DNA of 64,000 nt from Haemophilus parainfluenzae (GTDB lineage: Bacteria > Pseudomonadota > Gammaproteobacteria > Enterobacterales > Pasteurellaceae), in the NCBI RefSeq assembly GCF_014931275.1, contig NZ_CP063110.1, positions 1,410,001-1,474,000 of the forward strand. Direction: 5' to 3'. Below are positions 9,890 through 53,815 of this stretch, piece after piece. Both the position numbers and the translations under genes were made by a program. Numbering within the stretch: position 1 is the first letter of the stretch; each line of letters opens with the position of its first letter. Under the pieces are notes generated by a model that worked only from the letters and a program-made list of their open reading frames with translations, was not told the DNA's origin and searched no databases.

Positions 9890-10010
9890 ATTAACGACAA
9901 GAAATATACAAAAATAGCTAAAAGTTGGCAATATTTGAGGTTTGAAATTTTGGTGAATGATTAAGTTGATTATATATAAGTAATTGATTTTTGAAATGAA
10001 TTTTAGGAAA

Positions 10011-10040
10011 AGAAAAAGCCAGTAGAAATTTACTGGCTTT
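10011..10040 (-). terminator. terminator of tRNA-Val
   Basis: Minus-strand hairpin AAAGCCAGTA-6-TACTGGCTTT (10015-10040) followed by TTCTTTTCC, 6 bases beyond the CCA end of the tRNA. It lies inside the island and has a different sequence from the terminator beyond the distal repeat. Confidence 0.75.
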
Positions 10041-10046
10041 GATAGG

Positions 10047-10123
10047 TGGTGCGACTAGCTGGACTCGAACCAGTGACCCCCACCATGTCAAGGTGGTGCT
10101 CTAACCAACTGAGCTATAGTCGC
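10047..10123 (-). tRNA. tRNA-Val, anticodon GAC
   Basis: A complete 77-base cloverleaf with encoded CCA. The acceptor stem pairs GCGACTA with TAGTCGC, the anticodon stem CCACC/GGTGG encloses loop TTGACAT, giving anticodon GAC at 10087-10089, and the T arm has GGTTCGAGTCC. It closely resembles E. coli tRNA-Val(GAC) and reads GUC/GUU. Its 3' end is the attachment site of the 2-kb island, and pykA is transcribed divergently from it. Confidence 0.95.
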
Positions 10124-20590: not shown

Positions 20591-21778
20591 TTATGCGATG
20601 GTTACGCGTGCAAACTTACGTTTACCGACTTGGTAAACATTCGTGCCTTTTGGTGCATTGGCTTTCATGTCTTCGACTTTTTCGCCATTGATTTTCACAC
20701 CACCTTGCTTCGCTGAGCGAATCGCTTCAGAAGTAGAAGGAACCAGTCCTGCTTCTTTTAATAAGGTGGCTAAACCAATTTCGCCTTCAAAGGTGAATTC
20801 AGGCATTTCATCCGGCATTGCACCTTTTTGGAAACGGTTAATAAATTCTTGTTCAGCCGCCTCTGCCGCTGCTTCATCGTGGAAACGTGCGATGATCTCT
20901 TTCGCTAATAAAATCTTCACATCACGTGGGTTTTTACCATTTGCTACTTCTGCTTTTAATTCAGCAATTTCAGTGAGTGGACGGAAAGAAAGTAAGTTGT
21001 ACCAATCCCACATTAAGTCATCCGAGATCGACATGATTTTACCGAACATATCGCTTGGTGCATCTGTCACGCCGATGTAGTTGCCTAATGATTTAGACAT
21101 TTTCTTCTCACCGTCTAAACCAACAAGTAATGGAAGCGTAATCGCTACCTGTGGTTTCTGACCGGCTGATTTTTGTAACTCGCGACCAACAAGTAAGTTA
21201 AATTTTTGGTCTGTACCACCAAGTTCCACGTCTGCTTCTAAAGCAACAGAGTCATGGCCTTGTAATAAAGGATAAATAAATTCGTGAATTGCGATAGGTT
21301 GATTGTTACCAAAACGTTTTTTGAAGTCATCACGTTCTAGCATACGCGCTACGGTGTAGTTACTTGCTAAACGGATCATCCCTTCAGTACCCAATTTACC
21401 CAACCATTCAGAGTTGAATACGATTTTCGTTTTTTGTGGGTCTAGAATTTTGTAAATCTGTTCTTTATAGGTTTCCGCATTGCGAAGCACATCTTCGCGG
21501 CTAAGCGGTGGGCGAGTGGTATTTTTACCAGATGGGTCACCGACCATACCCGTGAAATCACCGATTAAGAAATAGACTTCGTGGCCTAATTGTTGGAATT
21601 GACGAAGTTTGTTTAATACCACGGTATGCCCTAAGTGAATATCCGGAGCAGTAGGGTCTGCACCAAGTTTAATTTTAAGTGGGCGATTTTCTTTTAGTTT
21701 TTCGATTAAATCCGCTTCAGAAAGAATCTCATCAGTACCGCGTTTTAGTTCTGCGAGAACGGTATTAATATCAGTCAT
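20591..21778 (-). CDS. tyrS: tyrosyl-tRNA synthetase
   Basis: A 395-residue class I synthetase. The HIGH motif appears as HLGH (48-51, in PDIHLGHTV) and KMSKS follows in [11 protein letters not shown] (about 229-239). An S4 RNA-binding domain closes the protein ([17 protein letters not shown], about 355-371). The lineage is the long-spaced TyrS type (often called TyrZ-like) rather than E. coli TyrS. The gene is downstream of, and on the same strand as, the Fur-controlled RNA gene, whose terminator lies between them. Confidence 0.95.
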
Positions 21779-21852
21779 TCTATTTCCTAATGTTATTTTA
21801 ATATTAAAGGCTACATTATAGAGAATATGGCTGAAATGAAAAGATTGAGATG

Positions 21853-21919
21853 AAAAAAAACGCCTATTTGTGGGGAAATAGGCGTGAAGTTGGAGTGATT
21901 ATCTGTTTGTTTTTGGAAT
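21853..21919 (-). ncRNA. Fur-controlled small RNA (RyhB/HrrF-like function)
   Basis: Predicted RNA of about 67 bases from a near-perfect promoter (TTGACA, 17 bases, TATCAT) to a strong terminator (ACGCCTATTT / AAATAGGCGT, then eight U). Two Fur boxes cover the promoter. No reading frame of any length fits. The unpaired 5' part is A/C-rich with CACUCC and the terminator loop is CCCCAC; both could pair with ribosome sites (GGAG, GGGG), as in iron-sparing RNAs such as RyhB and, in H. influenzae, HrrF. I cannot verify identity to HrrF. It sits between sfsA and tyrS, all on the minus strand. Confidence 0.8.
21857..21885 (-). terminator. terminator of the Fur-controlled RNA
   Basis: Perfect 10-base stem (21860-21869 with 21876-21885), 6-base C-rich loop on the RNA, followed by eight U (complement of 21853-21860). 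It also shields tyrS from upstream transcription. Confidence 0.9.
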
Positions 21920-21925
21920 GGCTAG

Positions 21926-21980
21926 ATGATAACTATTATCAAATACCTTGTCAACAACAAAATGCAAATAATTCTCAATT
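21926..21980 (-). promoter_or_regulatory. strong sigma-70 promoter with two Fur boxes
   Basis: -35 TTGACA (21949-21954), 17-base spacer, -10 TATCAT (21926-21931). Fur box 1, TGATAATAGTTATCA on the minus strand (21927-21941), matches the 15-base 7-1-7 consensus at all but one fixed position and overlaps the -10. Fur box 2, AATTGAGAATTATTTGCATT (21961-21980), lies just upstream of the -35 and has the classical GAGAATTATTTGCA form. Iron-bound Fur would block polymerase completely. Confidence 0.85.
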
Positions 21981-21985
21981 ATTTT

Positions 21986-22702
21986 TTAATCGATGTAAGG
22001 TACACTTTCTGTGAGAGAAAGTGCGGTCGGAATTCCATCTGAAATGTCAAATTTTCCCGCATAAGCATAAGCTTCAACGCCCTGAGATTTTGCGTCTTTT
22101 AAAAGGCGATCATATTCAGGATCTACAAACTCAGCGATTTTAAAACGATCGAAGCCATCATGTAATCCGGCAAAGAGAACAACGGCGCGATGTCCTTGTT
22201 TTTTCATGGCTAAAAGCTCACGAACATGTTTTTGTCCACGAGTGGTAACGGCATCGGGAAACATTCCTAATGTGCCTTTTACAAAGGTGATGGATTTCAC
22301 TTCAACATAACAATCTGTCAAGCCTTCACCTTTAAGTAAGAAGTCGATACGGCTATTTTCTTCACCATATTTCACTTCAGGATAAATTTCATCATACATA
22401 GCGAGTTCTTTGATTTGTTTATTTTGCAAGGCTTCAAAAACTAACTGGTTGGATCTGTGCGTATTAATGCAAACAAGTTGGCCATTTGCTAATTGCGTTA
22501 ATTCCCAACTGTGTGGATATTTGCGAGTTTGGCTATCAGAATGAGAGTACCAAACGGTATCACCTTTTTCACCACAGCCAGTCATTGCACCAGTATTTGC
22601 ACAATGAATGGTGATGACTTCGCCATTTGGTAATTCAATATCAGTTAAAAAGCGTTTATAGCGGCGAATTAATTTTGCGGATTGTAGAGTAGGGAGTTGC
22701 AT
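21986..22702 (-). CDS. sfsA: SfsA family protein
   Basis: A 238-residue SfsA protein. Seen: the N-terminal OB-like part with [15 protein letters not shown] (about 29-43) and a nuclease-like core with DFLLKG (about 119-124), YVEVKS (about 132-137) and [11 protein letters not shown] (about 150-160), where D, E and K residues occupy the PD-(D/E)XK pattern. E. coli SfsA was named for stimulating maltose use and is reported to bind DNA; the real activity is unsettled and a nuclease is plausible. A USS lies near the C-terminus (22020). Confidence 0.9.
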
Positions 22703-52636: not shown

Positions 52637-53815
52637 TTAGAACATTCTTGGACCACGAGGCATAGAGCCAACTTGTTCACCATTCGCAACTTGCGACACA
52701 ATGACTTTTTCACCTTCGTTTAAACCCGATTTGATTTCAGTTTTGAAATCATTTTGAACGCCGATTTCAACTTCACGCGGTTCAGATTGATTTTTATCAT
52801 TCAATACATTCACAAAGCTTTTGCCATCACGTTTTTGAATAGCCATATTGGAAACCAATAACACATCCTTGGCGTTGGCAATTTTGATGTTGTTTTCTGT
52901 CGTCATCCCGATGCGTAAAGTACGATCAGGGTTATCAATTAAAACATTAGCGTAATAGTAGATCGCACTGGTTGTGGAGCTGCTTGAGCTACTTAAAGAT
53001 GATGTTGAAGAGCTATCACTTGTCGTGGTATTGGCTGGATCAACAGAATCAATGACGGAGTGATATACGGTTTGGCTATCTGATAAAATAGTAAAGCTGA
53101 CTTCTTGACCTGCTTTGACTTTGGTAATGTCACCTTCCGAAATCTCAGGCTTAATTTTCATTTTACTTAAATCAGCAATGGTCACAATTGTTGGCGTCGT
53201 TTGGTTGGCATTAACGGTTTGACCTTCAGAAACGGGAACTGAAATAACTGTGCCATCCATTGGTGCAGTGATTTTGGTGTAGCCCACATTGGTTTCAGCG
53301 GTATTCACTTCAATTTCAGCTTGTTTGATATTGGCTTCAATGGCTTCCATTTCAGCTTTCGCATTATCAAGCGTGCTTTTAGCCGTATTTACACTATCTA
53401 AAGATGTCGCTTTTTGCGTATAAAGTTTTGATAAGCGGTTATAGCTTGAAAGGGCAACATCGTAAGCGGTTTTCTTCGCTTTTAATTGTGCTTGATAGCT
53501 AACCAATGCCGCCTTTTTGGTATTTAAGGTATTAATTTGGGTTGTGGAATCAATATCAGCGATCATTTCACCTTTTTTGATTTCTTGCCCTAACTTGACA
53601 TAGAGTTTGGTGATTTTACCCGAAGCTTGGGCGCCGACATCGACTTCATTCACGCTTTCAACTGAACCAGAAGCGATAACTGTTTTTTCAACATTACCAC
53701 GTGTAACCGATTCAGTAAGATAAGTGGTTTCTTGCTTGCTATTGCTAGAGAAAAAATAATAAGCCGCACCAGCAGCGACGAGTAATCCGAGTAAAATAAA
53801 AAAGCGTTTTTTCAT
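52637..53815 (-). CDS. macA: MacA: periplasmic adaptor of the MacB pump
   Basis: A 392-residue membrane-fusion protein: one N-terminal helix (5-21), a split lipoyl domain (about 55-85 and 175-210), a coiled-coil hairpin rich in Ala/Lys (about 88-165), and beta-barrel parts. A poly-serine run (about 264-284, TTTSDSSSTSSLSSSSSSTTS, here shortened) sits between barrel strands and is unusual. First gene of the macA-macB-channel operon; a TGAAC-N4-GTTCA palindrome lies 30 bases upstream. Confidence 0.92.
   Translation of the reverse strand: MKKRFFILLGLLVAAGAAYYFFSSNSKQETTYLTESVTRGNVEKTVIASGSVESVNEVDVGAQASGKITKLYVKLGQEIKKGEMIADIDSTTQINTLNTKKAALVSYQAQLKAKKTAYDVALSSYNRLSKLYTQKATSLDSVNTAKSTLDNAKAEMEAIEANIKQAEIEVNTAETNVGYTKITAPMDGTVISVPVSEGQTVNANQTTPTIVTIADLSKMKIKPEISEGDITKVKAGQEVSFTILSDSQTVYHSVIDSVDPANTTTSDSSSTSSLSSSSSSTTSAIYYYANVLIDNPDRTLRIGMTTENNIKIANAKDVLLVSNMAIQKRDGKSFVNVLNDKNQSEPREVEIGVQNDFKTEIKSGLNEGEKVIVSQVANGEQVGSMPRGPRMF

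Follow-up and report, generated by a model that had tools for sequence, protein, structure and literature searches.

Between sfsA and tyrS in Haemophilus parainfluenzae lies a small RNA (sRNA) gene that, judged from sequence comparison, probably encodes a trans-acting, Fur-repressed, iron-sparing regulator, which would block anaerobic respiratory mRNAs under iron starvation. What appears to be new is an sRNA of this type that is unnamed in Rfam and in the open-licence PMC literature searched. The gene, its conservation, its Fur boxes, the conserved unpaired segments, the covarying terminator and the complementarity to target genes were each established by computation, on the window (the whole 64,000-nt stretch of DNA analysed) and on related genomes, which are referred to here by numbers (G) with their fetched loci (L). 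The features of the locus and its surroundings are as follows.

20591..21778, minus strand: tyrS (PF00579), the downstream neighbour, outside the system
21815..21842, minus strand: additional promoter-like sequence (TTTTCA-16-TATAAT), past the terminator and ahead of tyrS, a consensus match only
21977-21853, minus strand: whole sRNA locus in the sequence, from the promoter and upstream Fur box through the terminator
21853..21919, minus strand: predicted sRNA gene of 67 nt, starting at A21919, 7 nt past the -10
21860..21885, minus strand: terminator hairpin of 10 pairs with a covarying stem, followed by a U-run to 21853
21869..21875, minus strand: terminator loop CCCCACA, the proposed second seed, with its complement at napA and some nrfA ribosome sites
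21889..21903, minus strand: seed GAUAAUCACUCCAAC, single-stranded and nearly invariant, with its complement at ribosome-binding sites
21926..21931, minus strand: -10 hexamer TATCAT, from the promoter scan
21927..21941 (21941-21927), no strand assigned: Fur box TGATAATAGTTATCA, 13/14 consensus positions
21949..21954, minus strand: -35 hexamer TTGACA, from the promoter scan
21963..21977 (21977-21963), no strand assigned: second, weaker Fur box TGAGAATTATTTGCA, 11/14, upstream of the -35
21986..22702, minus strand: sfsA (PF03749), the upstream neighbour, outside the system

The initial annotation had described TTGACA, a 17-base spacing and TATCAT, two Fur boxes of which one is near-perfect, and a strong terminator 67 bases past the start. 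The promoter elements are all present on the minus strand, with 11/12 consensus matches in the -35 and -10 jointly, and so are the two Fur boxes. The terminator is also there but not at that distance, as the hairpin begins about 34 nt past 21919 and 67 nt is the full RNA length. The TGATAATAGTTATCA Fur box overlaps the -10 and part of the spacer. Fur boxes were scored as matches out of 14 positions to the 7-1-7 form of the consensus, and the 13/14 box is the sole site with that score in the window, where one other site reaches 12/14. A TGAGAATTATTT-type stretch, resembling the weak upstream box, is visible by eye in the printed loci of many relatives. Scans of 21500-22300 returned three promoters relative to 2.3 expected from shuffles and one terminator relative to 0.8, neither of them above the shuffled level. 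Thus, the case for an sRNA gene rests on the combination of the elements and on their conservation. The combination, a Fur box at a sigma-70-type promoter followed by a short, non-coding RNA with an intrinsic terminator, is that of the functional class proposed here.

Of 140 Pasteurellaceae genomes, 137 matched a 117-nt query spanning the gene; they represent 41 of the 43 genera, and those left unmatched are G014, G097 and G115. The genomes with a match include pathogens of people and livestock, and the query was 100% identical in G001, the nearest genome compared and itself H. parainfluenzae. Using blastn with a 66-nt family query against 394 genomes of the order, we obtained matches in 33, all Pasteurellaceae; among 20 listed of the 361 misses, one belongs to this family (G097). 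The exact seed-plus-loop pattern was found at at least 80 loci in the genomes of 84,980 species, and among the matches listed 79 are from Pasteurellaceae, a family assignment that we assume for part of them, while a single Saprospiraceae metagenome contig among those listed is probably a chance match. The absence from other families is based on the blastn search of 394 genomes and the exact-pattern scan, and a diverged homologue may exist outside the Pasteurellaceae.

We took 91 copies from 89 of 90 fetched loci, dropping L075, in which only the promoter part matches. Within 100 nt of the seed, each of the 91 copies carries a Fur box scoring 12/14 or more (12 in 31, 13 in 47 and 14 in 13 copies); the copies are mutually related, in some cases identical, and so do not represent 91 independent events. 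The same score occurs in 0.27% of random 100-nt stretches of G001 and in 0.8% of shuffled upstream regions. Tandem duplicate copies, each with its own Fur box, were seen in single genomes at L060 and L092. As far as sequence comparison can speak, conservation decides that the sRNA gene is real and confirms what the initial annotation had observed.

The sRNA of the window folds at -12.4 kcal/mol (z -5.9), and none of 200 shuffles was as good. Throughout the family, the seed GRUAAUCACUCCAAC and the loop CCCCACA form two unpaired segments that barely vary. AATCACTCCA is invariant in an alignment of 44 sequences; the extraction of copies had required AATCACTCCA followed by CCCAC, making their presence partly a matter of construction, and a looser scan, with two mismatches and no loop condition, recovered AATCACTCCA in exactly those 89 loci out of 90, which means that the extraction conditions cost none. 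CCCAC is unpaired in the terminator loop in per-sequence folds of 62/62 distinct RNAs, and the longer CCCCAC in 57/62. The 5' stem arm occurs in 49 distinct versions among these RNAs, with compensated changes by which the terminator stem covaries. This covariation was taken from the individual folds of the 62 distinct RNAs because the MAFFT alignment misaligns the terminator stem. Two fixed unpaired stretches together with a compensating stem are thus as expected for a trans-acting RNA that acts by pairing. The suggestion made at the outset, that single-stranded CACUCC and the C-rich terminator loop could block ribosome sites, gains strong support from this conservation and from the complementarity to predicted targets described below. 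Six copies (L024, L027, L098, L099, L100 and L110) have some 25-30 additional nucleotides separating the 5' end from the seed; they include Rodentibacter and H. seminalis (L024, L027, L099, L100).

We scanned seven whole genomes for GGAGTGATTA, the complement of the seed, with the reversed pattern as a control. The seed complement gave 39 matches relative to nine for the control, and 7/39 are the antisense of the sRNA itself. We examined 29 of the other 32 matches, of which 18 lie at gene starts and ten inside or antisense to genes. Fifteen of the 18 start sites belong to fdnG (5; G001, G004, G062, G102, G117), nrfA (5; G001, G015, G029, G062, G117), napB (3; G015, G062, G117), hybO (1; G001) and cysG (1; G102), and the remainder to SirB2-like genes (G004, G062) and a glycosyltransferase-like gene (G117). 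A further GGAGTGATTA lies near 1500 in L196 (G015), about 41 nt upstream of apbC, which encodes an iron-sulfur cluster carrier, placing it in the leader and not at the start.

A looser pattern, GGAGTGATN{0,9}RTG, returned 72 matches in five genomes relative to 23 for the reversed control, eight of the 72 being one repeated G004 sequence. Nine of its ten matches in G001 were examined and 9/9 are at gene starts, those of fdnG, nrfA, hybO, norB, hyfB, ccmD, cysG, pilW and a minor pseudopilin gene. The 13/14 matches examined in G062 comprise nrfA, fdnG, napB, norB, ccmD and ytfE, and also nanE, ssb, kdkA, a SirB2-like gene, a pilin-like gene and two places without a gene start. Target names are NCBIfam or Pfam matches where tested, many of them on N-terminal fragments and mostly below full-length cut-offs, and nanE, kdkA, ssb and the orthologues in other genomes were named by eye. 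A conserved unpaired seed facing the ribosome sites of iron-using genes is another feature of the functional class, found here computationally and not in every genome. The sdh, suc and Fe-S gene leaders initially put forward as targets were right in kind, although those found mostly belong to anaerobic respiratory enzymes. At the start of the minor-pseudopilin-like gene, the 13-nt seed complement GTTGGAGTGATTT is present in two genera (L233 from G001 and L232 from G062, near 1500 in each), and in G001 pilW carries GGAGTGAT at its start. The sRNA might also act on pili or competence.

We then counted the longest run of perfect pairing between the sRNA of each genome and its own leaders, from -20 to +4, with the starts of nrfA, fdnG and napA set by motifs typed from the leaders. 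Runs of at least 8 nt were present in 15/27 nrfA, 16/20 fdnG and 6/16 napA leaders, and of at least 7 nt in 18/27, 17/20 and 10/16. Among 388 background gene starts, called simply from 400 kb of G001 and the window and including the napA of G001, five have a run of at least 8 nt and 17 one of at least 7 nt. Runs fell short of 8 nt in 12/27 nrfA, 4/20 fdnG and 10/16 napA leaders, some of which hold near-matches; several of these nrfA leaders carry one-mismatch versions of the site, such as GGAGTAATTATC and GGAGTTATTATC. The nrfA count covers 27 of 30 loci, without G014, G097 and G115 (no sRNA match), and six further nrfA matches lie outside the set. For fdnG, 20 of 25 were counted, without G014 and G097 (no sRNA match) and G009, G048 and G056 (sRNA not fetched). 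For napA, 16 of 20 were counted, without G097 (no sRNA match), G048 and G090 (sRNA not fetched) and G011 (start not parsed). A DmsA query returned mostly paralogues, and only its napA and fdnG matches were used.

Since nrfA, fdnG and napB had been found through the seed pattern, their counts in the discovery genomes are not independent. napA surfaced independently of that pattern, as the best partner of the loop among the 388 background starts (-16.1 kcal/mol, the next being -12.7; G001). The identity of NapA was confirmed at full length and the napA leaders of other genomes were then compared. When the 5' half of the sRNA was ranked against the same background in G001, nrfA, hybO, ccmD and the pseudopilin gene stood above all 388 starts; fdnG was equalled or beaten by five background genes, hyfB by seven, and norB, cysG and pilW by 23-30.

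Comparison of the leaders between genomes suggests that the two unpaired segments may be used differently at one gene. The nrfA leaders of Haemophilus, Aggregatibacter and similar genomes have 11-14 nt complementary to the seed, reaching 13-14 nt in eight genomes. Those in G004, G007, G033 and G070, which are Actinobacillus-type genomes, hold TTGTGGGGG-type sites with 9-12 nt complementary to the terminator loop. fdnG has a seed site in both kinds of genome, and 11/19 napA leaders show the loop-site core, GTGGGG, ahead of the start. Loop-type sites were also observed before dmsA (G058, where it is listed twice) and acnB (G004). A search with the loop pattern gave 93 matches relative to 40 for the reversed control, about twice as many. 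Thirty loci were fetched, most of them inside genes, and the plausible starts are those of nrfA, dmsA (G058), acnB (G004), a short Tat-type frame (G093) and a few others. The apparent switch of seeds at nrfA would represent target rewiring that arose naturally inside a single sRNA family.

We propose that Fur with bound iron covers the -10 and keeps the promoter closed when iron is plentiful, and that iron scarcity would free the promoter and allow the sRNA to be made. The seed AAUCACUCCAAC or the loop CCCCACA would then pair over the Shine-Dalgarno sequence of its target mRNAs, blocking their translation and sparing iron. The predicted targets encode NrfA, formate dehydrogenase-N, NapA, NapB, hydrogenase-2, NO reductase, CcmD (haem export) and CysG (siroheme synthase), that is, iron- and haem-rich proteins of anaerobic respiration (Fe-S, haem and molybdo-enzymes) and their makers. 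Transcription of the gene, binding of Fur, repression of the targets and any role of Hfq are what we infer from these features. The iron-repressed regulatory RNA that the initial annotation had envisaged is supported in this form by conservation and target complementarity. FNR, ArcA or a lack of cofactor could also lower the same enzymes.

The matches might instead reflect chance likeness to the Shine-Dalgarno sequence, in which case the RNA would be Fur-repressed and have other targets or bind a protein. Part of each target match is the Shine-Dalgarno sequence itself, as the complements contain GGAG and GGGG, and the core GGAGTGAT, expected about once per 64 kb, occurs once elsewhere in the window, at 53057-53064 (plus strand), which is about chance level. 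Several matched genes also lack a clear link to iron (pilW, the minor pseudopilin gene, nanE, kdkA, ssb, the SirB2-like and glycosyltransferase genes), and the excess of the loop pattern over its control is modest. However, the seed match extends beyond the Shine-Dalgarno sequence to 10-14 nt and recurs at the same respiratory genes across genera, its frequency there is far above that at other gene starts (5/388 with at least 8 nt), and nrfA is complementary to the seed in one group of genomes and to the loop in another. We consider chance likeness an unlikely account of these matches.

Comparison of the neighbourhoods bears on a second alternative, that the RNA is the terminated 5' UTR of tyrS, serving as its leader or attenuator. 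The terminator does lie upstream of tyrS on the same strand, and tyrS follows 66 of the 91 copies. It was not found within 700 nt downstream in the other 25, however, and several of these have a convergent gene instead. sfsA lies upstream in 57 copies, both neighbours are present in 38 and neither in six, and because the tyrS/sfsA neighbourhood varies in this way, a tyrS leader is not what is conserved. Between the terminator and tyrS there is also a promoter-like site for tyrS itself, a Fur box before tyrS would have no evident reason, and the seed and loop match respiratory mRNAs. A tyrS leader is thus very improbable, and the preferred reading remains a separate, trans-acting sRNA.

Barely credible in turn is the notion that this sRNA is the orthologue of HrrF or one of the Fur sRNAs JA01-JA04 of Aggregatibacter (RF02729-RF02732), for all that these come from the same bacterial family and have a similar promoter and Fur architecture. 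With Rfam 15 at E values up to 10, positions 21780-22020 gave no match to HrrF (RF02728), JA01-JA04 or the RyhB family, and RF02728 at its gathering cut-off has no match at the locus. The nine matches that the scan at E 10 did return are all far under their cut-offs; the best, PyrG_leader, scores 18 bits relative to 65, and the IsrR model of the cyanobacterial isiA antisense RNA is at chance level, with 10.2 bits relative to 52. HrrF itself matches 97/140 genomes at E 0.001 or better, 62 of them above the cut-off, and its position differs from that of the sfsA-tyrS sRNA in 4/4 genomes compared (G001, G015, G062 and G063). In G001, for example, HrrF is at C1:437169 and the sRNA at C2:287724. 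In G015 (A. actinomycetemcomitans) the sRNA is at C5:133255, with HrrF on C6, JA01 at C5:74676, JA02 on C13, JA03 on C7 and JA04 on C11. The published HrrF locus is between pmbA and hpt, according to the accessible part of PMC4144887. The HrrF identity was rejected from its locus (pmbA-hpt and not sfsA-tyrS), the separate positions and the absent model match, and the JA01-JA04 identity from the location of all four elsewhere in G015 and the lack of a model match at E 10. Whether the sRNA was the HrrF orthologue or new had been left undecided in the initial annotation, and the comparison with the HrrF locus in these four genomes answers that it is not HrrF.

The two RNAs are alike in having a Fur-boxed promoter, which does not discriminate, and in being intergenic and conserved in Pasteurellaceae, whereas the HrrF sequence is otherwise different. 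The conserved core of HrrF (L031-L042) holds GCTCCAAC, whose CTCCAAC also occurs in the seed of the sfsA-tyrS sRNA. HrrF and the sfsA-tyrS sRNA may compete for or share some targets. JA01-JA04 are similar in being Fur-regulated sRNAs reported in Aggregatibacter, and differ in their loci in G015.

RyhB of Enterobacteria provides the closest functional comparison, with a Fur-repressed promoter, a short RNA, an intrinsic terminator and a seed directed against the ribosome sites of iron-using genes, features that are here read from the sequence. The sRNA differs in its seed, in being shorter, and in having candidate targets centred on anaerobic respiration, and among the matches listed it is confined to Pasteurellaceae apart from one probable chance match. 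acnB is a RyhB target and, in G004, a candidate for the loop. The sRNA would thus work like RyhB, and by the Rfam model test does not appear to be a RyhB homologue. FnrS, PrrF, NrrF, FsrA and IsrR are likewise small RNAs that lower anaerobic or iron-using enzymes; FsrA and IsrR have C-rich seeds, and FnrS answers to oxygen, not iron. All five belong to other hosts and have no covariance match at the sRNA locus. The seed string occurs in the full text of one open-licence PMC paper, which is unrelated. The sRNA could also be present without a name in lists of anonymous intergenic transcripts, such as Table 3 of PMC10204968 and the supplements of PMC5156373 and PMC12507848.

A small peptide encoded at the locus, in overlapping ORFs of 54 aa (plus strand) and 22 aa (minus strand), has a negligible probability, as ATG, GTG and TTG are all absent from the RNA of the window (in keeping with the original view that there is no room for a protein), 50/91 copies have none, 32 of the other 41 have a start codon only past the seed, in the linker or terminator, and what is conserved is an unpaired motif and a covarying hairpin.

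An iron-sparing sRNA is consistent with the physiology published for the family, which we cite from the parts of the papers that were accessible. In those Pasteurellaceae that have been studied, anaerobic respiration declines when cells are starved of iron (PMC3091793, PMC5156373, PMC12507848). In A. pleuropneumoniae, the dms, frd, nap, hya/hyb, fdn, tor and nrf products decrease in both RNA and protein, and eight sRNAs are differentially expressed (PMC12507848, accessible part). Predicted targets of the sRNA are among those that fall. An earlier study of the same species also found nrf, fdn/fdx, hydrogenase and dms genes lowered, and its authors, in 2010, held that HlyX and ArcA were not the main regulators and that a RyhB-type sRNA was likely though unproven (PMC3091793, accessible part). 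In A. actinomycetemcomitans 624, the direct Fur regulon has two iron-induced sRNAs, an HrrF homologue and an unnamed one that is bound by Fur, induced by iron restriction and predicted by the authors to target nitrite reductase (PMC5156373, accessible part). For the copy of our sRNA in A. actinomycetemcomitans (L055, G015), the complementary site at the start of nrfA is 14 nt long, and the unnamed sRNA, as far as that part of PMC5156373 describes it, may well be the same RNA.

The strongest evidence against an iron-sparing sRNA at this locus is from H. influenzae 86-028NP, in which, according to the accessible part of PMC4144887, no Fur-dependent sRNA besides HrrF was found. H. influenzae-type genomes do carry the sRNA together with its Fur box, for example at L018 from G063. 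The growth conditions might explain why it was not seen, or such a short RNA might have dropped out of the library. HrrF became known after the 2010 study, and the modABC genes, which are lowered by HrrF, do not fit iron sparing according to its authors (PMC4144887, accessible part).

The sRNA is a specific candidate regulator for the shutdown of anaerobic respiration: it has a Fur box, its predicted targets can be named, and the sites at which it would pair are defined to the nucleotide. We lean, by a little, towards the broader proposal that it is the family-wide iron-sparing regulator suspected since 2010, with two alternative seeds between which targets such as nrfA switch in evolution, and that on iron loss it would close the anaerobic electron-transport chain (formate, hydrogen, nitrate, nitrite, NO and perhaps DMSO).

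Elsewhere in the window, positions 9938-10085 (plus strand) match the Rfam antisense RNA HPnc0260 with 65.1 bits relative to a cut-off of 59. The match overlaps a tRNA gene on the opposite strand (10050-10123), of which it is perhaps a by-product.
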